Below the pieces are notes generated by a model. The model did no database searches. It was given only the letters and a program-made list of their open reading frames with translations, and had not been told where the DNA came from. The position numbers and the translations under genes were made by a program. A stretch of 64,000 nt of DNA from assembly GCA_964036195.1 (NCBI GenBank), contig OZ038457.1:7405147-7469146 (forward strand), in the 5' to 3' direction. This document shows positions 47,527 to 62,590 of the stretch, piece by piece; within the stretch, counting starts at the first letter, position 1, and each line of letters starts with the position of its first letter. The stretch comes from Sphaerolaimus hirsutus (taxonomy: Eukaryota > Nematoda > Chromadorea > Monhysterida > Sphaerolaimidae).

Positions 47527-47658
47527 TCAGAAGATGAAACCGCAGGAGACTGCAAAAATTATCTGTATGATGGTAAACAAGAGTTCAGCTATGCTGATCA
47601 TGGAAATTCCATCGATTAAACCAAGATATCCACCAATGTTTATGGGTAGTTGATAGAT
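47527..47658 (-). CDS. Gene C exon 14: pore helix and stop
   Basis: Encodes PINIGGYLGLIDGISM and a hydrophobic helix (AELLFTIIQIIFAV), then five residues and TGA. The I-G-G-x-L-G-L...G-x-S...E layout is the second membrane helix and filter of DEG/ENaC channels. There is almost no cytoplasmic tail. Confidence 0.9.
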   Translation of the reverse strand: MYQLPINIGGYLGLIDGISMISIAELLFTIIQIIFAVSCGFIF

Positions 47659-50600
47659 CTACGAGTGTTCAGAATCAGATTATTAACTTCAGATTAACGA
47701 TGGCAAAAAAAGATTCGAAAATTCGAAAAGTAACAAAGAGTTTGAAAATTCGAAAAGTAATGAAAAAGATTCGAAAATTCGAAAACTAAATTCAAAACTT
47801 CGAAAACTATTTTCAGAAAAATTCGAAAAGTCTTTTTGGAAATTTAATTTAAATTTAAATACTTTTTTCGAGAGGGTTTGCCATCGTTACTTCAGATTAA
47901 ATAATACCCCCATCGAGGGGGGGGGGGCTTATTAGAGGATTTACGGTAGATATTATCTGCGATATTAAAACATACTGGATATGATGGAACTTCCTCAAAA
48001 GCCAAGAATACGTTGCCCTTCAGATAAACCTTGATTGTCAGATAGTTTGTGGTGTAGTTGTAGTAACATTCGCTGACCAAATTAGCATCCGCTAGGCTTT
48101 CACACGCTTGAATCTGAAACATGATGTGGGTAATCTGAATTAGCCTTACCCTAATTTATGCATATGCAGCCAATTTGTTGTGTGTGTAGGTAGTATTATT
48201 TATACTGATTAGAAATGCCCGAAGAAGGGGCGGAAGGCTGACGTCATGTATGTGGGTCATGTCGTTTTGGGTTCAAAACTATTCAGATTCCCGTGAAATT
48301 GTTCGCGCGGTATCTGCTTTACTTGCCGTCACTTGACGCGGAATTAAAAAATTTATCTGTTTTTTTTCTTGTTACGTGGCTGTGCATTTGACAGGGTGCA
48401 AACTGCAAGTCTGCTGTTTGAAGAAATCAGGTACACCCAAATATTTAGTTCTATGGCTCCACACACACTAGGTACATTTCAACCGAAATTTTGAAGACTC
48501 ATAAATCAGCTTTGAACGAATTTGAGTTTTCTGAAATCATGTGTCCGGCAACTACAGTTGATCGTGGTTGAAAATAACTCATTCCGGTAAACCCTAAGCT
48601 GATTTGTGAGTTTTCACAAGTTCGGTTGAAACTAGTGTACATACCTAGACACTATTTATACCAACGCACTTTCTTCGAAAACGGCGAGTGCGACACGTCC
48701 AAATTGTACTCCCTGTTTTTGCAGCGCGGCGGGCAGTCGCATTCGGACCAATCCTCTGGTTCCGCTCTGGCGCCGAGAAATTTGTCCAAACAATTTTTAT
48801 CAAACACTGTGCACGTTTTCTCTCCATCTGGCGTTCTATAACGGGGGTCCATGCAGCCGCACGTTTTTTTCACATTCATCTGTACTCGGGTTTTCGGTTA
48901 TCGTTCCGGGTATCCGGTTTTGTTTGAGCTTTTATTATGCAGACTCACTTGATGACAACTGCGCAGACACCCCTGCGATATTTATTGAGGGTTAGATTTA
49001 CATTTATATAAAAAAATATTTATGTAAAAATAAATTTTCCTGCACGTATGAATTCTGGTTCAAACGAGAATTCGTGATTCTCGAAATCGGATCTACCGTA
49101 TTTGCTTGAATTAATCCCCTTGAATTGACCACCCCCCCCTTTAAATACTCCAAAATACCAAGCGAGAGCTCTAGAAAAATATCCCGCGAGAGCGAGAGAA
49201 AAACAATCCTCCCCTTGAATAATTCCTTCCTCCCTCGAATAGCCCCCCTCAAAAATTAAAGAAAAAATAATCCCTGGGGCCAGATTTAATTCTCCCTACA
49301 GATTTGTAGGGTAGGGCGTACGCCCGATAGATTTTTTAAAGTTCAGCCGCATCGATGCACATGCACCGAGAGCAAGGCGGTTCGTAAAATACACGAAACT
49401 ATCCCTTAAAGTCGCCGATATTGCAATATGACGTATATCGCTTCGATTTTGGCCCGGAAATCACGATTTCGTCATTTCTTGGCCGTCTGCCAATTCGTTT
49501 TTTATTTTATTTTGTCGGGCGGGTTACTCGCATAAATCGCGCTTTTGTACGCTCGTGCATGCATTTCTTTCTTGCGCTGCCCTCATGGTTTCGGTTGCAG
49601 ACAGTGAACACTAAAAAAGTGACCACCTGACTACACAAAAGCGCGACTTATGCGAGTAACCCGCCCGACAAAATAAAATAAAAAACGAATTGGCCGACGG
49701 CTAGAATTACGATACCTATTCACCCCAGTAAAACAGACGCTTTCAAGTGGCTTGGGTGACTCTCGTGCCATTTGCTATAAACCATTCCAAGCAAATTACT
49801 GTAGTGAATGAACAGATGGCACGCACTTTCAATTTTGGGTACAGTGTCATTCGTTTTGGGGATGTTGTGACGGTATAGATAAAAGGGCATTAATGCATGT
49901 TGTTTTGTCGCATTACGCATACTTCCCAAGGTTTGCACTGTGCAAGTGTATTATTAATTTTGTTACCGCGCACCTGTTACTAAGATCATTCACAAACTTC
50001 GCGCGGTAACCTTAGTTGATTTTTAAAAAGAATTTGTAGACACATAATTCCACATATTACCTAACTTTCTTATTTCTGGTCGGATTTGGTTCGAATAAAG
50101 TTTATCTGAAAGCGTTTTGTCAGCTCATTACAATGCAAATGAGCATTTTCTATTGAATATCTTTGAATATTAATCGTAAAAGTTTACATTTAATTTAAGT
50201 TTTTAAATAAAGCAAATGATGACAAATACGACATGTGCATTGTAATTGGCAGATGAAGCGCTTTCAGATAAATCTAATTTGAACCAAATCCGACCAGAAA
50301 TAAGAAAGTTAGGTGTGTATGTGCAACTATGTGTCTACAGCTTCTTTGAAAATCAACTAAGGTTACCGCGCAAAGTTTGTGAATGATTTTAATAACAGGT
50401 GCGCGGACACAAAATGAATAATACACTTGCACAGTGCAAACCTTGGAAAGTATACATAATGCGACAAAGTACATAGTACACCGAGTATGCATAACTTTTT
50501 TACTGCATGTGTTACACAGTTCTTTGATCTGCGCCGTTCCGACCCCTCAAGTTAGAACAGTCACGACACGCAGCGTAAACCATTCCAAGTCAAGGTAGTA

Positions 50601-53600
50601 GATTACAGTGGTAAGACAAACAAATCAAAAGGTTCCCAAGCTACCGGCTTGGCTTGGCATTTTCTGGGGTGAATAAATACCGTATACGGACGGCTATTAT
50701 ATGATATGACTGAACGAATATGATTTCCGTGCTGAAATCGAAGTGATATATGTCATATTGCAATATCGGCGACCTTAAGGGATGGTTTCGTATATTTTAC
50801 ATACCTGCCTTGCTTGCTCTCGGTGCATGTGCGTCGATGCGGCTGAACTTTAAAAAATCTATCGGGCGTACGCCCTACCCTACAAATCTGTAGGGAGAAT
50901 TAAATCTGGCCCCTGGGGGGATTATTCGAGTTAACGGGGTAGTGAGGATACGGATCGAGATTTGGGACTTGAATACAATTTTTTGTGATCGGCATTGAGG
51001 CATCGATGTCGCGATCGGGTAATTATGCCGGGTAGTTACAGTGAAACATGAATCGTGATCCCGTTTGAACCCTGGGTTGCTCCAAACTGTCACCTCTTTA
51101 TTGTATTTGCTCCCATAATAATAATTAGCCACTTCGCTCGGCGTGTTCACGCAATCGCCGTAGGGTCGTCCAAGGCGATTTAGGTCGGTCGAAAAAGTTA
51201 CAAAAACAGCTTCTGAACAAGCAGTTCGCTTTAAAAGAGTGTCATTGTAAAATTGGATTCAATATGATACCTTGTCAAGTGACGCGAAATACGGTTCGAA
51301 ACTAGTGATGTTAAAGGTACTGGGAACTGTGGCACCGCTCCGGACCCTAAATAGTTGGGTATACTTTTTTGTGCTTTGAAATATGAGTGAGCACATGCTG
51401 TGGACACAATTTTACAGCCCATGAAGGCTTGGTTGGTGCCTTTCGTTTTGTCCTGATGCTAGCATCTAAGGGCACCCTTGAAAAAGGGCACCGCACCCAC
51501 ACCGGTGATATTCTGGTAAAATGGCACCGGCACCGGCAAAGCACCTCTAAAAATTGCAATGACACCACACTAGCACCGCTACTGGTGCCCTTCAGTGGCC
51601 ATTAGCGAGCCACCCGTGCCCCAGTGCCTTTACATCACTATTAGATATTCGTACGGAGGGTTTGATACCCAGTGGAATTGGCAGTGGAAGTGGCTTTCAA
51701 ATTTTTGCACAATTTCTACAATGAAAAACAACGAAAACAAAACAATGACGATCGTCATTGTTTTGTCGTCACTCACACTCGCAAATACTATCGTCACTTG
51801 ACATGGTGCCTAATTGTCCCTCGAAACTGAAACATTCTTACGAATTCAGTCGCGATGTGTGTCGTTTCGCCAGTGCTCACTGTGACGTGTGCCGATTCGG
51901 CAAATACTTGTTCGTCCCGGTCATGCACGAAGACCCGCAGCCCCGATTTTTCAATCCACACGGTGTAGTCATCTTGGCGCACATTGTATCTGAGCTCGAC
52001 GCCTGAGTTCATATTGTCTTTGAAAACACAACTCGAATACAAAAGATAAAAAAATGAAATTTACATACCGTATATACTCCAATAAGACCTCCCCCTCGAA
52101 TAACTCCTCCCCCTTGAATAACTCCCCCTCTTAAACGCTGACGGAAAAATAACTCCCCCCTCGAATAACTCCCCCTCTGGGTGAAAAACATGCTAAAAAA
52201 TTTACAAAAGTTATCGATGAAAATAAAAACGAATGTTAACGTAACGCAGATACATAACGTGTACGCAGTGTATAAACACGTTTTTGTTGTCATTGAACTG
52301 TTAAATACTTGGATTACATGAGTTGACAGAATGCATTCATACATTGAATTTAGTCCCAGTTTCTGGGGAAAAAATAACTCCTCCCCCTTGAATAACCCCC
52401 CCCCCCTCCCCTCAAAAACTCTGACGAAAAAATAACTCCCTGGGGTCTTATTCGAAGATTTACGGTATTCAGAAAGATAGCTTATTCATATTTTCACAAA
52501 ATCGTTCATAATTATCATTGGCATGCTTCCAACGTGAAACATAAATGACTTCGCTGAAAGTGGAGTGCCATAAATCTTAAAATATACCCCCATCAAATAA
52601 CTCCCCCTCAAATAACTCCCCCGCAAATAACTTCCCTCAAATAACCCCCCCCCCCCCCCTCGAAAAACTCCCCCTCTTGCGAGCGTGAGGAAAAATAGCT
52701 CCTCCTCGAATAACTCCCCCCTCATGATCGATGCAAATAAGTCGGGTCAAATTAAAAAACATTTTGATGAAGCCAAACAGACCAAAGAAGCCATGGTCTG
52801 ATTCATCGAATGCAAAGGCAGTGCAGCGTATGTAACGTAACAAAAGAATTTTTTACCTAAAGCGACGACCTACGTATTTACATATTCACTTACCTACACT
52901 CCTGGAAAAATATCTTAATCCTCCTGATCGGGAACAAAAAATTTCAATGTCTCCCCTGCTAATGTGCGACCCATCTTGGGGTATATCCATTGGATGAATT
53001 CTTGTAGATGAAGGTGCCTTTATGCCACATGTCGATTTTTAGGTTTCTGGGTGCCTTGCTGCTCATTTGACAGCGATCCAGAGTCAAATTTCCGGTGGAA
53101 AAAAGTTTTTATCACTTATGCTAAAACGTTCAAACAAAGAAGAAAACCTGGTAAAACAATGAAAAAGACTGCGATGTGATGTGAAAAAACAATGCACTGC
53201 TTAAATATTTATCACTTTGCCAATTTGTGTTCAAAATGGTATACCCAGGTGACTCGATACTCTGCACTCGTATTGATTTCGCATCCTTTTCAAAATCGTA
53301 TGCCATCGGTTGACAGACAAATATTGACCCGGCATGGTGCCTATTTTTGAATTTATAAACACAACTAAATGTTGGCACCGTGCCAGCTCACAACTGCTCG
53401 CATTAAGCGAAATGTAAAAAAGCAAAAAAAAATCGCAGAAGGCACTGCGTTCACGGTTAACGATTTATTGACTATATACGCAGGAGGGGGGCCATATTTC
53501 TACTGTGGGGGTCGACATAATCACCCCACCTATCTATGAGTTTCACCTCTCAGTGACCATATTTAATGTTTGGTTCACCATTGAACCAAAAAAATCAAAG

Positions 53601-56600
53601 GCATAACGACATTTTTCCAGGAGTGTATGTACTGAATATTCTCGACGAACAAAGAACTCTCCCCTCGAATACCCCCCTCGATTTACTCCCCCTCAAAATA
53701 TTCAGATGAAAAGATAATTCCCCCAGGAACTTATTCGAGTATTTATGGTATACAAGTGAACTTTTCAGTTTTACCGCCAGTTATTCCCGACCATCGGATA
53801 TCGTGCCGCGCCGTTGCGTTTGGGTTGAACGTGAAGCAGTTGCCCAGCACCGCGTTGTTCCAAACCTCCACGTCCACACTGAATGAAATGTAATTTGGTG
53901 GGATAAGAATATAACATAACTTACGGTGATGTCACAGTAGGGAAGTGGATCAAAGTTAGTGCGTGTTTTGCACATTGATCCTGTTCCAGCTAGGAAAATG
54001 CATTGCACTCAACTTACAATACATTGATACTTGAGTTTCCTTAACTCAACATTCTTTTTTTTCTAACTCAAGATTATTTTTACCGGAGAACAATACGCTG
54101 TCAAGTTGACGCCTTTAGCAAGTGTTTCAACAAGACAGATCCCCTAAGCCCTGTACCTAAAAAACCCTGACGACATAAATTCCATATGGATCTATTTAAA
54201 AGAACCAAAAGACCAAAAAGTAACCGCGTCTCGCATGGAATGCCCTCATAATAACACCATTGGCGGAAACCTTCAGTCATATCCGCCAAACTCCAGCTAG
54301 CACCCATCCGTTCCTCCGGGGTGAGATACGTGACCAAGTCGAAGGTCAGGGCGTCGCCCACCACCGACGACAGCACGTTGCCGTCCGTGTCCGGCTGGAA
54401 CGGTGCTATATATTGGCGCCTACGCCTACCTAGTTTGCACCATCACTTGTGATGTAAAAAGCGCCAGAACTTTGGCGCCAAGCGCCATGGCGCTTTTCCG
54501 ACCTCTAGCGCCAAGCGCTAATGGCGCCAGAGCAAAATTGCGCCAAGCGCCAGAAGCGCCATGACGCTTTTTCTTTGGCGCTAGCGCCAAGCGCCAGCGC
54601 CAGGCATTTTGTTCCTGGCGCCGGGTAAAAATCGCGCCAAGCGCCAAAAGCGCTATGGCATTTTTCGTGGGCACGGCGCCAAAGCCAGTTAGCGCCAAGC
54701 GCCATGGCGCTTTATGCTTTGGCGCTCGTGCCAGGCGCCTGCGCCATGGCGCTTTTACATAACCAACCATGACTTTAGTGAAAACTTACCAGAAACTTCA
54801 AAGTGCCGAACGTTTTTCAAAGTATGCGTCAAGTATTTGGTTTTAACTCCCCCCCCCCTGAGTACAGAAAGCAAAGAATTTTTTTAAATTTTACTCGCTA
54901 AGTAAAAATGAGAGTAAAATACTTTCTTTCCCTGAAGCGTAATGCATATTTATGGGGGAAAACCAAAGTCCAAGTGTGTATAATCCAATCAGGCATAATC
55001 CAAGCAGTTTTTGCGCATAATCCAAGCACTTCAGATGCAATATCCACTCACTTTTTAGTGCCATAAACTGCAGCATTATCCAAGCAAAAATTAAGCATAA
55101 CCTAAGCATGCCGTCAAGTATTATTTACACAACATTAAGGCAAGCAACATTGCAAAGTATTAAGATACAGAATACATGCAGTGGGTTAGATGCTTGGATT
55201 ATGCCTGATTTTTGCTTGGATTATGCGTAATTTTGTGCTTGGATTATGCCTGATTGGATTGTGCACACTTGGATTATGATGCAGACTCGTATTTACTCGG
55301 TACTCGAGTATGCGTACTTTTTGAGTATAAGTAAATATGCATTAACAACTGTGAAACTTAAATGGCGCCATCCAGTATAGAATTATTTTATGCTTTTTAT
55401 ATTTTAGTTTTCAAATTTTTAAATTCAAAGTGCATGTGCATCGTCCGAGCTGAACGTTGAAAATTTATCTTGCGTGGTGGTGGAGCGGTTTGCCCTATAA
55501 ATCCGTAGGGAGAATCAAATCTGGCCCCTTGGAGATACGGATCAAATAAACATCAATCCAATCCGAATCACGTTGTTAAGTTGGTTCAATCGCGCCATTC
55601 TCTACAACCATTAAAAAACTCACTGTGACATCCAATAAATCCATGAGTTTGTTGATGATCTCTCCCATCCCCGCTTCTGTGACATAAATTGCTATATATT
55701 TACATACTGGTAAATATATCCCATTGCTCTCATCCCCGCTCTAGATTTAGCGTTTCCAGCGTGTGAAATGTAATTTTCGAACAGCACTGTTTTGTTTGTC
55801 ACTGTAGTGCTGTAAATCCACTTTCACAGCAAAAAAATGGGGGTGTGATGCGAAGCGGGCTAGATGCGCGTGAAGCGGCCCGCTTCCGCACGCTTCCACA
55901 TGCTTCCACACGCTTCCCCAAGATTTGTGAAATTTCTGGTGAAGTGTCTTCCACACGCTTCACCTAGCTTCACCAACGCTTCACGGCGCTTCCAAAACAT
56001 GTGGAAGACACTTCACGCCGCTTGGCGCTTCCACACGCTTCACGAAATCGGTCTGCTTGTGTGGATGTGTCTACATGTTTGTGAAGGCACTTCACCATGA
56101 AAACAAGTGGTGAAGACACTTCACCTTATTTTGCCATTGGTGAAGGCACTTCACCTTGCAATTTACTGCATTTTTTCATTGGGATGCCAAGAAGGTGTGT
56201 AGTGATGGCACCATTTACGTGCCAGTTCAGTGTGCATTGTGAAACGTTTACTTGTTATGCCATATCAAAAGGTTAATGATTGGCGAGCATGTGTGCCATA
56301 TAATACTTGTATTAGTGATGCCTAGTGACTCTTTATTGACACCCGCTAACACTCATGCATTGTGTTTTGAAATATTTGTTTATAATGCAAAATAACTATT
56401 TGCTAGGTATTTGTAATCAATTCATGAACATTTTGGAGCGTATAAAATAATAAAAACTAACGCAGCATAAAAAAGACTATTTACCACAATATTTTATTGT
56501 GAAGTGTCTTCATCACAGTTGGTACATTGTGAAGACACTTCACATCAGTCACTTCACCAATATTGTACAGCGTCGTGAACCGCGCCTGGGGCGCGAAGTG

Positions 56601-59600
56601 CCTTCACGAAAATTTTCGTGAAGCGTGTGGAAGCGCAGGGCAGGTTCCAGAGCGTCCGGGAAGCGTCGGCGTGAAGACACTTCCCGACACTTCACCACGC
56701 ATCCAAACACCCATTTTTTGCTGTGTTTTATGAGATTTGAGTATAAAAAACTAGTGTGTGTAGAGGCACATTTTAAATCTTAAATTACCTAGGTTCGTTT
56801 TTGAGTTACTTGCAAATACATTTCATCGCCTTGGTGTTCTATTACCCGTCTGACGCGCGCCGACAGAGTGGTATTTTAATAAAGTTGATTTGATTTAGGT
56901 TCATTGGTTCGCAATTAAGATTTACATTGCCTGAATGCCTACCTGCTATGCAATCTGGGGGGTCGCGGGCAGCGGAACATTGGCACACCGGTATACGGGA
57001 TTGCAGGTCGTCTGTGCAATTTGCATCTGGGAGCAGTCTCGCACCCTGTAAAGTGTAACGTAAAGTGCCAGATGTCATGTAAAATGTCAATTAAAATAAT
57101 GAAATAAAGATTCTTTTTCTGACTGAACTTTTGACATTTTAAATGACATTTGACAAATATGTATGACATTTTACACGACATTCGCTAGTTCACTTTACAA
57201 TTTACAGGGTGCGGGATAGAGTCCACCTGGGTCCACCATGCCGCAGGCATATACGCTTGTACAGGGACGTTCTGAAATACATATGGTCTACATTTTTCTC
57301 TCCGAATTTGGCTGTAGAGTTTTGCGATCAAGACATAAGGTAAGGATACCTTCGCAGCTTATCTCGCACGGTTCTGCGGCGCAAAGCGGCGCGACACAAA
57401 TAGAGTTATAGACGCGGCTGCAGCCGTCGTCGCCCCACTTGTACCCACTGCCCCGCCACCAGAATCCACAGAATGGCGCTTTGCCGCCGAAAAAATCAGG
57501 CTGGCCTGTATGATGGCGATGATTTTTTTACTTACGCCCCTGTACTTGCCTTGATGCCAATTGCCAACACAACCAGGGTCAACTTTCCGCATTCCGAAGG
57601 TAAAATCTTTCTGTTCCGATTTTCAGCTGCAATTTTTTTTAGGTTTCTATTTTCTCCAGCTTATTTTTTTCAAGAAAATGTTTCTGTTTTTCCACCTCAT
57701 TTTCCATTTTCCAGCATTTTTTTTGTTTTTCCACCTCATTTTCCAGCAAAATTTCTGCAAATTCTTATTTTGCCAGCAAAGTTTCCACAATTTTTCTCAT
57801 TTCCAGCAACTCTTATGCAATTTTTTCCTTTTATGTGTAAATTTTGCTTTCCATTTTCCAGCATTTCATTTTTCCATTTTCTAACATTGCATTTTTCAAG
57901 TGCATTTGCAAGTGCAAAACAAATCTTTTTGGTTTTCACACATCCGGGCAAGTGCAAAAAAATTTCTGTTTCCATTTTCCATTAAACATTTTTTGACACC
58001 CTAGAGGAGGCTAGACACCACCCACATACCCCGTAAAATGTCAAATGTCATGCAAAATGCCCTGCGAAATGGCAAATATTGTGCATCCTTCAAAAGTCTT
58101 GTAAAGTACACTGTAAAATGGCCACATGCCAGTTAAAGTGTCAGAAGCAGGGTTGGCTAAATCTCAGAAAAAAATAAAAATAAAATAAAAATAAAATGGA
58201 AAATTGGAGAATAAAATAAAATAAAATAAAATGGAAAATTAATAAAATAAAAATACAATTTTACTAAAATTCAAATTTTTGTAAAATTTTTGTAAAATTG
58301 TACAATAATTTGAATTTTTGTACAATTTTAGTAAAAATTTACAAAAACTCAAGTGTCTGTTCAATTCTATAGAAAGTTTTCTATCATGTTGCTTAAGTTT
58401 CTAGCTGCCAATTTGCAGAACTAGTGCCTTGTTGTATCTTTCATTGTTGTGATTGAGAAATATTGTTGCTCAAAATTGCAAATGTTCACATTTTTTAAAA
58501 TATTTTCACCTTAAAAATCACTAATTTGTGATTTTTTCTTATTTTCTTCGTTGCATACCTTGAAAAAGCCTATAAATATATTGAACCCCGCAAGCCCCCC
58601 CCCCCCACCCAAAATAACAACAACCCATTTCCCTTGGGAGGAGCAATTAGCTCTCCCTGAGGGTCAAAATACAAAATACCTACCTCGCAACCCGTGTCAC
58701 AAGTTTACATAAATGTTTTTTTGTATTCATCTGCATGCTTCTAGTGTGCACATTGTTTTATGTCCTTGCATCCAAGATTTCCGATTTTTTGTAAAAATTT
58801 TGTAAAATATTTGTAAAATTTTTGTAAAATGGTTTCTTTTTTTTATTAATGACATTTCAGAATAAAATAAAATAAACTGAAACATGAATAAAATAAAAAT
58901 AAAATACAATTTTAATAAAAATAAAATACAATTTTAGTAAAAAGAATTTTACTAAAACCAACCATGGTCAGATGTCATGTGAAATCCCCTGTAGAGTGTC
59001 AAATAGGCATACCTAATAGGCTTTAGCTGTAATACGGGCTGAATAGGGTTATAATAAAGTATAAACTACAAGAGATAAACTGACGAGGTGCCCAACCGTC
59101 GTAATCGTCCGGACTTCCATCAGACCAACTCCACTCGTGCTTGTCTTCTAAATCATTCATGCCGTGCCAAACCCCGAACGGACTATCCAACTCGTATGTA
59201 ATGCCTTTTATGAAGCTTATCATTTAAACAAATTGTGTCAAAAAAAATCTTAACCACCAACTTCTGCCCAAATCGTCATCCTGCCACAGTTGTTAAAATG
59301 TATTTGCATTTACTCGAGAAAAAAAATACATATACTTGAGTAGTGATGTAAAAGCGCCATGGCGCTGGCGCCTGGCGCTAGCGCCAAAGCAAAAAGCGCC
59401 ATGGCGCTTTTGGCGCTTGGCGCCTTTTTGCTGTGGCGCCATTGGCGCTTGGCGCTGTGCTACGGAAAAGCGCCATGGCGCTTTTGGCGCTTGGCGCTAT
59501 GATGCCGTGGCGCCATTGGCGCTTGGCGCTGGCATTTTAAAAAGCGCCAAAAAAGCGCCAAGGAGTTCAAAAAATAGATCATTATTTTATGTTAAAAGAC

Positions 59601-62590
59601 CTTGTGTGCAAAATTATCACCAGTAAATGTGTTACTGCACATGTATTCCAGGAAGAACAAACCCTCCACTTGCTTATTTTGCAAGTATATTCAAAAAAAA
59701 TTCCCCAATAAATGGGCCTAATGGTTCCCATCCCAATTCAAATCTGCTTCAAATATTGCATTGTGTTGAAAATAAAGTTTTGTTGTTGTTGAATAAAAAG
59801 GTAAATACAATGGTAAAATGTCTGAATGCTTCAAACTGTAGAGGACCCAAAGTAAATAGATGTCCAAAAGATGTCTGGAAGAATCACATGGTGCACTCCC
59901 AAGCACCTCCAGACAGAAAACCCTGTTTCGACCCTTTTGAACAGACAGGGGATTATTTTGGGGCGGGTGCCGCCAGGGTCTCATCAGTGCTCAGCACCCT
60001 TAGCCTACATAACCTACTTAACCTACTAAACACCTTCCCGGACAAGTTCACCACCCAATTTTTTATTTCACTTCGGATGTAATATCTCCGTCTATGGGGG
60101 TGTTATAAAGCTGAAACGTTGAATATATAAAGTTGTAACACCCTCCTACTCTGCTTCAATGGGGGGAGGTGGGGCAACTCACTGCAAGGTGGGTTGCCCT
60201 ATACACAACAATTTTTTTTGGCGTTTTTGGTGTCCCAAACAAGTTCACCACCCACTTGATTAGCTATACTTCAAGGGTCGTATCTCCAGCTGTGAGGCTG
60301 GTATAAAGCTGAAATTTGGGGGATGTTTTGCCAACAACCCCCTTACAATACACCAGTGGGGCTGTCTGCCAGCGACCCACTAAAGTATGCGTTGCTGCGT
60401 TTACAGTTGTTCATTTTTTAAAAATCAACCCACGTGTCCCAAACAAGTTTGCCACCCAACTGCATTATAACAAATATTGTGAGAACATACCTGATATAAA
60501 ATTGAATCAGATTTGAACCATAGTTCTGCTCATTCAAAAATTTTCAGTAGGGCACCCACCCCGTCCCATAAACAGCAGACTGAAAATTTCACTTTAAACC
60601 AATTTTTTTGTTTCACACTTAAAAAGTTGGTTTACAAAGTTCATTAGGGAAGGGTCCAAGGTTCAAAGTTACATAAAAAACATGACCTCTAAAATGCCTC
60701 CATAAGGAAATTTATTTGGGGTGAATATTATGATGTCATAATCACATTATCACAGGAACAAAATTTCACAAAATTTTTACTTTTTCATTCACCCCAAATA
60801 AATTTCCTTATGCAGGCATTTTAGAGGTTATGTTGTTTACAGAAGTTTGAACCTCAGACCCTCCCCTACCAACCTTTGTAAACCAACTTTTTAAGTGTGA
60901 AACAAAAGATTGGTTTAAAGTGAAATTTTCAGTCTGCTGTTTATGGGACAGGGTGCATGCCCTACTGAAAAAAATTTAATGAGCAGAACTAGGGTTCAAA
61001 TCTCACCCAATTTTATATCAGGTATGTTCTCGCAACATTTTTTTATAATGCAGTTGCTTAACAAACTTGTTTGGGAGACTTGGGTTGTTTTTAAAAAATG
61101 AACAACTTTATATGTCGCAACCCATGCAGTAGTGGGCCGTTGGCGGCCACCCACTGGTGTATTGTGCGACGGGGTTGTTTGCAAGACATCCCCCAAATTT
61201 CAGCTTTCTACCACCCTCGCAGCTGGAGATATGGCCCTCGTTGTGTAGCCAATCAAGTGGATGGTGAACTTGTTTGGGACACCAAAAAAGCCACAAAAAA
61301 TGTTTGCATATAGGGCGACCCACCCTGTAGTGAGTCGCCGCACCTTCCCCCATTGATACGGAGTAGCAGGGTGTTAAGAGTATATACCCACCAAAAATTA
61401 GCTTTATACCACTTCCATAGCCAGAGATATTGCATCTGAAGTGAAATAAAAAAATGGGTGGTGAACTTGTCCGGGAAGGTGTTTACAAAACCTAACCGAC
61501 AGGACCTAACCAATACCTGCATTAGCATGGCTGCTATTTGGGCAGCAAAAAATGTTTGGCGCTGGCGCTATTGGCGCTTGGCGCCAACATTCTCTGGCGC
61601 CATTGGCGCTTGGCGCCGTGTTCTAGAAAAGCGCCATGGCGCTTTTGGCGCTTGGCGCTCACATGCCAAAAGCGCCATGGCGCTTTTGGCGCTGGGCGCC
61701 AAAAGTCTGGCGCTTTTTACATCACTATACTTGAGACTCAAGTCTTGAGTACTGTGTATAATAAATACATTTACATATAATTTTAAATAAGTACCCGTAT
61801 TCACCTGTATGCATGCATACTTTTGAGAAGATTTGTTTTTTTTTACACATGTACAGTGTTGAAAAGTACACAAATCAAAAAATTTTATCTCGAAAATAGA
61901 TAAACTTTGAAGAAATCATATAATTTTCCAACTAAAATACTGAATAATCATCAAAAAACGACATCTGTTATGGATTTCAGTGTAAAAGTACCCACTTTTA
62001 CATATGCTATGATGAAAAGTACTCGCTTTTACATTTTCTGGGGCAAAAGTACTCGATTTTAACTTTTTCAGAGAAAACTAAATTATTTACTCAGATGTAC
62101 CCACGAGTATGTGTAAAAAGAAAGTATTTTACATTTTCTGTACTCCAGGGGTAAGTACAAAACTGTTTTACGTATAAATACATATACTTTGAAAAAGTAC
62201 ACTAATTTTAACAACTCTGCGCCCTGCTGGTTGTGCACAGACGCCAGCTTGCCGCCGAACTTGATGCACTTTGCCTGTGCCTCGTAGAATGAGAGTGGTT
62301 CGGTGAACAGGAGACACGAGGTTCTTCCCGACCAAGGGAAACGTGCCCATTCGTTTAGTACGATTGCTGTGTTGTAATTTTGACATTGTAGAGTTTCTTT
62401 GTGCAATTTCATTATTTCGAGGGGTTTAATTAAAGTGGGGGGGGGCAAATCGAAGAAATACGGTTTATAAAGCGGGATAAATCGTGTAAACACGTAAAGC
62501 CTCCAGTATCAAATGCTGAAAACAAATACACATACCGTGACTGTGCATTGCCAGAAACGTCAGGACGGTAAAATATCGCCATTCTGACAT
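47527..62590 (-). CDS. C-type lectin / EGF / DEG-ENaC single-pass membrane protein (full gene)
   Basis: Fourteen exons, all GT-AG with matching phase, give 578 residues. Exons: 62590-62536, 62396-62216, 59215-59085, 57505-57350, 57271-57227, 57026-56943, 54405-54225, 53878-53775, 52002-51842, 51228-51094, 48972-48949, 48879-48670, 48113-47976, 47658-47527. Domains: signal peptide 1-18; C-type lectin domain about 22-165 (WHGMND, WSWSDGSPDDYDGW, QPD, WGDDGCS); six-cysteine EGF module 178-215; DEG/ENaC ectodomain about 230-540 (GNCFTFN, RLGRPYGDC, GCLRSCHQ, CGC, CDCPPRC); pore helix about 543-573 with the G-x-S filter (GIS, 552-554) and the conserved Glu after it. Known DEG/ENaC subunits have two membrane helices; here the first helix and the His-Gly motif before it are missing, because the N-terminus is a secretion signal. 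The C-terminal tail is nearly absent. Protein-level function (channel, subunit or receptor) is unknown. Confidence 0.85.
47695..47889. mobile_element. hAT-like element, word ATTCGAAAA
   Basis: Ends TAACGATGGCAAA / TTTGCCATCGTTA with exact duplication cttcagat (47687-47694 and 47890-47897). It sits in the last intron of gene C, 36 bp before the terminal exon's acceptor. Confidence 0.82.
47976..48113 (-). CDS. Gene C exon 13
   Basis: Starts at ATGTTTCAG and ends at CCA|GTATGT. Encodes the beta strand leading to the pore helix (NYLTIKVYLKGN and EEVPSYP). Confidence 0.82.
48670..48879 (-). CDS. Gene C exon 12: cysteine-rich domain
   Basis: Seventy codons with KTCGCMDPRYRTPDG and WSECDCPPRCKNREYNL, the cysteine-rich DEG/ENaC segment. 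Phase 0 at both ends; donor GTGCGT. Confidence 0.92.
48949..48972 (-). CDS. Gene C exon 11: 24-bp microexon
   Basis: Eight codons (GCLRSCHQ) between ATCGCAG and GTGAGT, in phase 0 on both sides. Without it the channel loses the Cys-x-x-x-Cys pair that always precedes the CGC motif; with it, KYNKE-GCLRSCHQ-MNVKKTCGC reads as a typical family segment. An in-frame TAA just upstream prevents a longer exon. Confidence 0.75.
49274..50915. mobile_element. Second copy of the 634-bp palindrome, split
   Basis: Same arms as 35583-36216, but the unpaired centre is in the opposite orientation; the right arm is interrupted by 49713-50682. Confidence 0.8.
49713..50682. mobile_element. Nested 970-bp fold-back TATTCACCCCAG
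   Basis: Left CTATTCACCCCAGTAAA, right TTTCTGGGGTGAATAAATA. Inner arms pair through CGCGCACCTGTTA, CAACTAAGGTTACCGCGC and CGGATTTGGTTCGAAT to a centre near 50190. Confidence 0.78.
51094..51228 (-). CDS. Gene C exon 10: RLGRPYGDC
   Basis: Follows a pyrimidine-rich acceptor (CTCTTTTAAAG). Contains DLNRLGRPYGDC, the most recognisable DEG/ENaC ectodomain signature, then YYYGSKYNKE. Confidence 0.9.
51303..51640. mobile_element. hAT-like element, word GGCACC
   Basis: Ends TAGTGATGTTAAAGG / CCTTTACATCACTA; the arms carry GGCACCG words. No clear target duplication. It lies in the gene C intron between exons 9 and 10. Confidence 0.7.
51842..52002 (-). CDS. Gene C exon 9: beta-rich ectodomain core
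   Basis: Encodes VELRYNVRQDDYTVW, then SGLRVFVHDRDEQ and HVTVSTGETTHIATEF, matching the G-[VL]-x-L...G-x-x-V-x-V-H...G-x-x-x-x-I core of the family. Donor TTC|GTAAGA. Confidence 0.87.
52066..52467. mobile_element. TACCGTA-superfamily element
   Basis: Left TACCGTATATACTCCAATAA, right TTATTCGAAGATTTACGGTA. Similar fragments follow at 52586-52725 and 53645-53750. Confidence 0.72.
53775..53878 (-). CDS. Gene C exon 8: GNCFTFN motif
   Basis: Follows TTTCATTCAG and carries AVLGNCFTFNPNATARH, the conserved Gly-Asn-Cys-aromatic motif of DEG/ENaC channels. Two possible N-glycosylation sites are visible. Confidence 0.85.
54225..54405 (-). CDS. Gene C exon 7: start of the DEG/ENaC ectodomain
   Basis: Encodes a segment with SLADMTEGFRQWCYYEGIPC, which matches the early ectodomain pattern ending C-x-F/Y-x-G-x-x-C. 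The donor CG|GTTACT is weak but is the only phase-compatible choice. Confidence 0.75.
54447..54767. mobile_element. hAT-like element, word GCGCCAAGCGCC
   Basis: Ends TGTGATGTAAAAAGCGCC / GGCGCTTTTACATAACCA. The body is nearly all GCGCCA words with AAAGCGCCATGGCGCTTTT palindromes. It ends about 40 bp upstream of gene C exon 7. Confidence 0.7.
54790..55352. mobile_element. CAGAGTTGTTA-type element with an inner ATAATCCAAGCA word element
   Basis: Right end GCATTAACAACTG and ACGTAAAG-type words at both sides; between about 54960 and 55280 ATAATCCAAGC words run and then invert (TTGGATTATGC). Confidence 0.55.
55827..56723. mobile_element. Inverted element, words CTTCCACACGCTTCAC
   Basis: Ends CAGCAAAAAAATGGGGGTG / ACACCCATTTTTTGCTG. 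Arms of CGCTTCCACACG and GTGAAGTGTCTTCACC words. No clear duplication. Confidence 0.75.
56943..57026 (-). CDS. Gene C exon 6: second half of the EGF module
   Basis: Begins at CTGCTCCCAG and encodes NCTDDLQSRIPVCQC and a last cysteine. Joined to exon 5 it gives C-x5-C-x8-C-x10-C-x-C-x8-C, an EGF pattern. Ends at G|GTAGGC. Confidence 0.72.
57027..57226 (-). mobile_element. 200-bp intron that is itself a dispersed element (introner candidate)
   Basis: The intron between gene C exons 5 and 6 has inverted ends around CGCACCCTGTAAA and TTTACAGGGTGCG and the same interior as the repeat at 426-623 (AAAGTTCAGT, then a T-rich stretch, then GACATTTTACATGACAT). Both flanks carry CCCAG. The GT donor is the first dinucleotide of the element and the AG acceptor is in its last bases or the flanking duplicate. 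Deleting it gives GAC-CCA-GAT-GCA and restores the EGF frame. Confidence 0.7.
57227..57271 (-). CDS. Gene C exon 5: first half of the EGF module
   Basis: Forty-five bases after TATTTCAG encoding RPCTSVYACGMVDP with the first two EGF cysteines. The donor is CCCAG|GTGGAC, where GT is the first dinucleotide of an inserted element. Confidence 0.7.
57350..57505 (-). CDS. Gene C exon 4: end of the C-type lectin domain
   Basis: Begins at CATACAG with the QPD tripeptide in the sugar-binding loop position and continues to KWGDDGCS and the last domain cysteine (SICV). QPD is the galactose-type signature in sugar-binding members of this family, so galactose-type ligands are a reasonable guess. A cysteine-rich linker follows. 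Confidence 0.83.
57590..58005. mobile_element. Word repeat related to 7305-7963 (TTTTCCATTTTCCAGC)
   Basis: The right end TTTGACACCCTA equals the end of 7305-7963 and the body is TTTTCCAGCA words; no matching left end was found. Confidence 0.55.
58148..58966. mobile_element. hAT-like element CAGGGTTGG, word AAAATAAAAT
   Basis: Left CAGGGTTGGCT, right AACCAACCATG, duplication gtcagaag / gtcagatg (7 of 8). Same family as 38703-39678. It split a GTAAAGTGTC-family copy. Confidence 0.75.
59085..59215 (-). CDS. Gene C exon 3: middle of the C-type lectin domain
   Basis: Encodes the hallmark WHGMND followed by HEWSWSDGSPDDYDGWAP. Entered in phase 2 and left in phase 1 at C|GTCAGT. Confidence 0.85.
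59341..61727. mobile_element. hAT-like element, word GCGCCA, with a fold-back inside
   Basis: Ends TAGTGATGTAAAAGCGCC / GGCGCTTTTTACATCACTA with exact duplication tacttgag (59333-59340 and 61728-61735). GCGCCA arms are at 59355-59560 and 61555-61725. Confidence 0.85.
60022..61495. mobile_element. 1.47-kb fold-back element with internal direct repeats
   Basis: The arms pair from CACCTTCCCGGACAAGTTCA outward in to AAGGAAATTTATTTGGGGTG near the centre (60715-60810). Each arm has about two and a half units of roughly 190 bp beginning CCCAAACAAGTTCACCACCC. Confidence 0.82.
62216..62396 (-). CDS. Gene C exon 2: N-terminal half of the C-type lectin domain
   Basis: Shows the family pattern W...SC, then A-x-A-K-C, then GGKLASVHNQQ. 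Acceptor CAAAG is weak but phase-correct. The best donor, GCAGA|GTTGTT, lies in the terminal repeat of an inserted hAT-like element. Confidence 0.75.
62536..62590 (-). CDS. Gene C exon 1: start codon and signal peptide
   Basis: Encodes MSEWRYFTVLTFLAMHSH plus one base, then the strong donor G|GTATGTG. An in-frame TGA lies six bases before the ATG with no AG between, so translation cannot enter from an upstream exon. The short hydrophobic core (YFTVLTFLAM) reads as a cleavable signal peptide. Confidence 0.68.

Follow-up and report, generated by a model that had tools for sequence, protein, structure and literature searches.

Channels of the DEG/ENaC family are regarded as proteins with two membrane helices, in which the N-terminus helps to give the pore its shape. 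The pore of ASIC and ENaC is lined by the second membrane helix (TM2), and the N-terminal His-Gly loop lies below it. A gene of the nematode Sphaerolaimus hirsutus raises the question of what a protein with the DEG/ENaC ectodomain (ASC domain) might do if the first membrane helix (TM1) were missing and a C-type lectin domain and an EGF-like module preceded the channel part. The gene lies in a stretch of 64,000 nucleotides (C13:7405147-7469146 of the 348-Mb genome), which will be referred to as the window. In the same genome, COX1 on contig C762 is read with the invertebrate mitochondrial code. It occupies positions 62590-47527 on the minus strand. This span, the strand and the presence of 14 exons in one open frame, all put forward in the original prediction, were confirmed from the sequence, as was the start ATG, which an in-frame TGA precedes by six bases. 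The predicted protein has 574 residues and consists, in this order, of a signal-like start, a C-type lectin domain, a six-cysteine EGF-like module, a linker, the ASC ectodomain and TM2 (Table 1). Exon phases are consistent along the revised 14-exon chain, and GT/AG sites, an open frame and matching phase were found for all exons apart from the exon 10 acceptor (see below). Taken together, the evidence described in the following makes it very probable that this is a real gene with a lectin + EGF-like + ASC architecture devoid of TM1.

Table 1. Exons of the lectin/EGF-like/ASC gene and the repeat element in its fifth intron (positions in the window)
Feature	Position	Strand	Evidence
Exon 1, start codon and signal-like peptide MSEWRYFTVLTFLAMHSH	62536..62590	-	Moderate hydropathy
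Exon 2, first part of C-type lectin domain	62213..62366	-	Pfam match, paralog identity
Exon 3, middle of C-type lectin domain	59085..59215	-	Pfam match
Exon 4, end of C-type lectin domain, QPD	57350..57505	-	Pfam match
Exon 5, first part of EGF-like module	57227..57271	-	Module uninterrupted in paralog A and C9 locus
Intron 5, copy of high-copy inverted-repeat element	57027..57226	-	Inverted arms, genome matches
Exon 6, second part of EGF-like module	56943..57026	-	
Exon 7, linker and start of ASC ectodomain (CYYEGIPC)	54225..54405	-	In-phase join to exon 8
Exon 8, ASC ectodomain (GNCFTFN)	53775..53878	-	Pfam, paralogs
Exon 9, ASC ectodomain	51842..52017	-	Pfam, paralogs
Exon 10, ASC ectodomain, 5' end uncertain	51094..51228	-	Paralog comparison
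Exon 11, 24-nt microexon GCLRSCHQ	48949..48972	-	Match to P0001 and C4 paralogs
Exon 12, cysteine-rich ASC ectodomain	48670..48879	-	Pfam, paralogs
Exon 13, end of ASC ectodomain	47976..48113	-	Pfam, paralogs
Exon 14, TM2 with G-I-S, very short C-terminus, stop	47527..47658	-	Pfam, paralogs

Two changes in the exon chain were flagged by alignment with P0001, a protein of the nematode Auanema (see below). A candidate exon at 53980-53925 was dropped as spurious: exon 7 ends with ACGCG|gttact and joins exon 8 at 53878 in phase without it. The second change was the addition of the microexon, whose product GCLRSCHQ corresponds to GCLRSCYQ in P0001 and to GCLRTCHQ in the paralogs located on C4. After both changes the score of the ASC match rose from 121.1 to 152.8 bits, and the start of the match moved from profile position 176 to 155. 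An alternative donor of exon 5 at 57206 would add seven residues (GLYPAPY) and lengthen the protein to 581 residues; it was disfavoured because these residues are missing from paralog A and from the related locus on C9.

Intron 5 itself consists of a repeat element. Its inverted arms (57037-57089 and 57164-57216) are 53 nt long and 81% complementary, and at least 85 match rows were obtained genome-wide, with 40 of the 1886 candidates scored. Several copies match to base 200 of 200, and the acceptor AG stands at the end of the element. The element is absent from the same place in paralog A and in the C9 locus. These observations suggest that intron 5 was likely gained by transposon insertion. 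Other introns, e.g. at 59366-59531 and 52077-52130, contain many repeats of the GGCGC type and of the CCCCTCGAATAA type. Elsewhere in the window, an open stretch on the plus strand (592-1346) resembles the end of an EGF-bearing receptor, with GFDGRYCE followed by a hydrophobic helix and a tail. Three-frame Pfam scans of both strands of the first 10 kb gave nothing above the cut-off, and the Rfam search yielded no match.

The N-terminus MSEWRYFTVLTFLAMHSH is moderately hydrophobic, with a mean hydropathy of 1.06 over 19 residues (judged by hydropathy only). The signal peptide of the original prediction is a putative one, with a signal-like exon also present in all five C4 paralogs, and its cleavage is a presumed step. 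The C-type lectin domain with QPD was clearly recovered: the Lectin_C model matched with 50.8 bits (curated cut-off 22.6) over profile positions 2-106 of 107, and QPD is at residue 115. In place of WND, the usual motif of C-type lectin domains, the window protein has WGD, while paralog A has both QPD and WND. The sugar-site motif varies by copy, being QPD in the window gene and in C4 paralog A, and EPN in a C9 copy (L051). For the six-cysteine EGF module the outcome was mixed. The six cysteines are present and are kept in the paralogs (paralog A and the C9 locus), but no Pfam model matched the module in any of the three versions obtained from lectin genes. Cysteine spacing and the paralogs point to a probable EGF-like identity.

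In the channel part, the ASC model (PF00858) matched with 152.8 bits (cut-off 23.6) over profile positions 155-454 of 455, and TM2 carries G-I-S at residue 548, in agreement with the predicted DEG/ENaC ectodomain, pore helix and G-x-S filter; the protein ends almost directly after TM2. The ASIC pattern comprises 14 cysteines, of which, by our own reading, the ASC part has 13. G-I-S was kept in all six TM2 sequences compared (window gene, three C4 genes, a C1 locus and P0001), a set that represents two organisms, includes three members of one tandem array and covers the C1 locus without its N-terminus.

Searches with the window protein revealed five tandem genes (A-E) on C4 between 18.54 and 18.67 Mb. 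Each of them has, collinear and on one strand, a first lectin exon, an EGF exon, the linker of exon 7 and the counterparts of ASC exons 8, 9 and 12; in gene B the third lectin exon was matched in part only. A full reading of paralog A gave a signal-like exon, three lectin exons, an uninterrupted EGF exon, the linker, the ASC part, the microexon and TM2. Identity between the window gene and paralog A is 44-59% for the lectin exons (30 of 51 residues for exon 2), 56% for the EGF-like module, 47-71% for the large ASC exons and 56% for TM2 (24 of 43 residues in the TM2 exon, as compared with 37 of 70 in exon 12). A signal-like exon with a phase-1 donor precedes the first lectin exon in all five C4 genes, the same scan also giving one chance candidate each in C and D, and this exon was found as well at a C9 lectin locus (L028), where no ASC part was seen. 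On C9, at 10.614-10.619 Mb, lectin and EGF exons are followed in collinear order by the linker and by ASC exons 8 and 9, but the first lectin exon was unmatched there and TM2 falls outside the stretch examined; a second C9 locus, at 10.67 Mb, has lectin and linker parts only. Because the order is kept in the five C4 genes, and partly on C9, a false fusion of two genes is very unlikely and was rejected: as predicted, the lectin domain, the EGF-like module and the ASC part without TM1 belong to one gene.

The exon 7-type linker is more widespread. Relatives of it, up to 55-59% identical, were found at C4:8.5-8.8 Mb, on C143, C3, C4:16 Mb, C1 and elsewhere (55 matches). At one such locus an EGF-like exon stands upstream of the linker, and its best Pfam match was far below the cut-off. 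In the linker genes at C4:8.52-8.76 Mb and on C143 (L022-L026 and L041), where the locus with the EGF-like exon has an RVT_1 reverse transcriptase nearby, no lectin exon was matched. Another side observation concerns a C-F/Y-Y-E-G-Q-P-C piece of the C4 paralogs. Among genes A-E only gene B has an AG in open frame for this CFYEGQPC/CYYEGQPC piece; in A, C, D and E (L034-L037) the motif is kept and the AG is missing, so that the exon is a putative one in these four genes.

The ASC exons of the C4 paralogs are under purifying selection. Using six ASC exons (about 810 sites), dN/dS values between 0.03 and 0.15 were obtained in all ten gene pairs. A, C and D are near-identical, therefore the informative pairs are the seven that involve B or E, for which dN/dS was 0.10-0.15.

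The lack of a first membrane helix, as put forward in the original prediction, was addressed by two kinds of search. A broad motif scan of the minus strand between 46 and 64 kb revealed neither a His-Gly or His-Ala motif followed by a helix nor an FPAVT-like first-palm-strand motif. When applied as a control to nine TM1 exons of the same genome, the scan detected His-Gly-plus-helix in six and the palm-strand motif in five, and one or both in all nine. The best scores of a profile built from the same nine exons were low: for the window 9.2 bits (E 0.19), for paralog A 7.4 bits, for the C9 locus 10.0 bits (E 0.1) and for the 9-kb flank of the window 9.9 bits (E 0.12). In leave-one-out tests the profile found eight of the nine exons at E < 1e-4. 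The remaining one (L044) scored 7.7 bits, which is in the noise range, and was detected by the motif scan; given this miss, a very divergent TM1 may be beyond the reach of the profile. Paralog A has no palm-strand motif, and its two His-Gly-plus-helix stretches (18580234 and 18581341) look like low-complexity repeat. Since TM1 with His-Gly and the first palm strand were searched for and not found, the gene product is not an ordinary DEG/ENaC subunit, and the prediction that it has no first membrane helix held in both searches. Two outcomes had been named beforehand as speaking against the prediction, an upstream exon with TM1 and His-Gly, and a division of the lectin/EGF and channel exons between two genes; neither was seen in genomic DNA. 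The gene product may work in a DEG/ENaC-like manner despite the missing parts.

In the protein search, P0001 of Auanema sp. JU1783, an unnamed nematode protein of 895 amino acids, was the sole protein at E <= 0.001 among 3100 candidates. It has a signal-like start and EGF-type modules, to which the moderately hydrophobic start and the probable EGF-like module of the window protein would correspond, and, like the window protein, a TM2 with G-I-S. Its ASC match starts at profile position 148 (155 in the window protein), neither protein has any earlier ASC part, and the two are 30% identical over the ASC part. What sets P0001 apart from the window protein is the absence of a C-type lectin domain and the presence of several EGF modules. 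The topology as such, which the original prediction had taken to be new, is therefore not new: a signal-like start, EGF modules and an ASC domain without TM1 are already combined in P0001. As far as can be judged by sequence comparison, the distinguishing element is the lectin domain on an ASC protein lacking TM1, and the nearest relatives appear to be the EGAS-like proteins that P0001 represents. In the C. elegans proteins EGAS-1 to -4, EGF modules are joined to an ASC domain; we know of no lectin domain in them. More distant comparisons can be made with proteins that share one part of the gene. ENaC alpha and ASIC1, whose structures have been solved, are homologous to the window protein in the ectodomain from the finger onwards and in TM2. 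They have a cytosolic N-terminus, the His-Gly motif, TM1 and the first palm strand, and they lack lectin and EGF modules. The lectin domains of C-type mannose receptor 2 and of the IgE receptor CD23 are homologous to that of the window protein but, unlike it, are not accompanied by a channel domain.

Taking these observations into account, the best overall explanation, to which we assign a probability of about 0.5, is that the gene encodes a type-I single-pass lectin/EGF/ASC protein whose TM2 takes part in a trimeric pore together with ordinary subunits. The protein would belong to an EGAS-like branch from which TM1, the first palm strand and the His-Gly loop are missing. After cleavage of the signal peptide its N-terminus would be outside, the chain would pass through the membrane once, by TM2, and almost no cytosolic tail would be left. 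Trimers would form as in ASIC and ENaC. By our reading the ASC match starts in the finger region, so that the outer part of the ectodomain would probably be the place from which the lectin and EGF modules extend, in a good position to meet a ligand. The putative extracellular ligand of the lectin domain would then tune the assembled channel. TM2 would line part of the pore, most likely beside ordinary two-helix subunits that provide TM1 and the His-Gly loop; such assembly is favoured over a homomeric channel because these two elements are missing from the protein itself. The pore-contributing mechanism, considered separately, falls slightly short of an even chance. Loss of TM1 and of the His-Gly loop, which would be expected to harm a classical pore, speaks against it.

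The same loss, together with the almost complete lack of a cytosolic tail, would also fit a non-conducting trimeric lectin receptor or adhesion protein, in which the ASC ectodomain is a rigid stalk and TM2 a mere anchor, and lectin and EGF modules are typical of receptors. This explanation is a serious though less probable one. A plain anchor would be expected to drift, whereas the TM2 exon is conserved to a similar extent as exon 12 (see the identities with paralog A above), and G-I-S was kept in all six sequences from the two organisms, for which reason a pore-related role is favoured over that of a plain anchor.

It is also rather unlikely, though conceivable, that the window copy is a decaying gene. 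In all five C4 paralogs the exon 10 acceptor is TTTCAG followed by M-D-M. At the matching site of the window gene (before 51189) the sequence is ctttttcg followed by ACCGACCTA, with no AG. The AG at 51229-51230, which is in phase, was taken as the acceptor; its use lengthens the exon by 13 residues, one of them an odd cysteine. The paralogs have nothing that corresponds to this insertion, which coincides exactly with a gap in the alignment with ENaC alpha. The window copy may thus show odd splicing, decay or an assembly error at exon 10. Loss of the acceptor and insertion of 13 residues with an extra cysteine would be in line with decay, but the remaining exons are open, in phase and provided with GT/AG sites, the upstream AG keeps the frame, and an assembly error of a single base is possible at this site. 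Even decay of the window copy would leave the architecture standing, since the paralogs support it too.

Another way in which the protein might act on ordinary DEG/ENaC subunits is as a decoy or dominant modulator that joins them through its ectodomain and holds them closed or retains them. The near-complete set of ASIC-pattern cysteines would be compatible with such joining, and potential partners exist in the same genome: of 86 ASC matches with a score, at least 24 begin at or before profile position 43 and thereby include at least some of the N-terminal third (the genome scan scored 93 of 478 candidates, and the counts are lower bounds). Nine of these 24 were read, of which five have SAHG or SAHA and a sixth has TFHG. 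A family on several chromosomes nevertheless exceeds what one decoy would need, and we regard this role as improbable.

The least probable alternative by far is a hidden TM1 isoform, made from an unseen upstream first exon with skipping of the lectin exons: the microexon of this very gene illustrates that an exon can escape notice, and the TM1 profile missed one of nine left-out exons, but a TM1-like exon was found neither in the region of the window gene nor in the next 9 kb, in which a further gene apparently starts. Moreover, among the 86 ASC matches with a score (93 of 478 candidates scored), no match starting at or before profile position 43 was placed less than 1 Mb from the lectin loci of C13, C4 and C9, and the signal-like exon is present in all five C4 copies. 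The upstream flank (L057, C13:7472000-7477500) contains, on the minus strand, exons with HEMMHSFD, which we take to resemble an M13 neprilysin-type peptidase; as these exons are on the same strand, another gene seems to stand upstream.

The lectin/EGF/ASC proteins could form a class of lectin-gated cation channels with one membrane pass per subunit and the lectin outside, the pore being made by TM2 alone or by TM2 within ordinary trimers; at present such a class is a speculative and rather unlikely proposal. A gene family that is under selection and has the ectodomain, TM2 and the filter but no TM1 amounts to a natural experiment on the roles of TM1 and the His-Gly loop, and its external lectin domain suggests a direct action of sugar or matrix ligands on the DEG/ENaC fold as a possibility.
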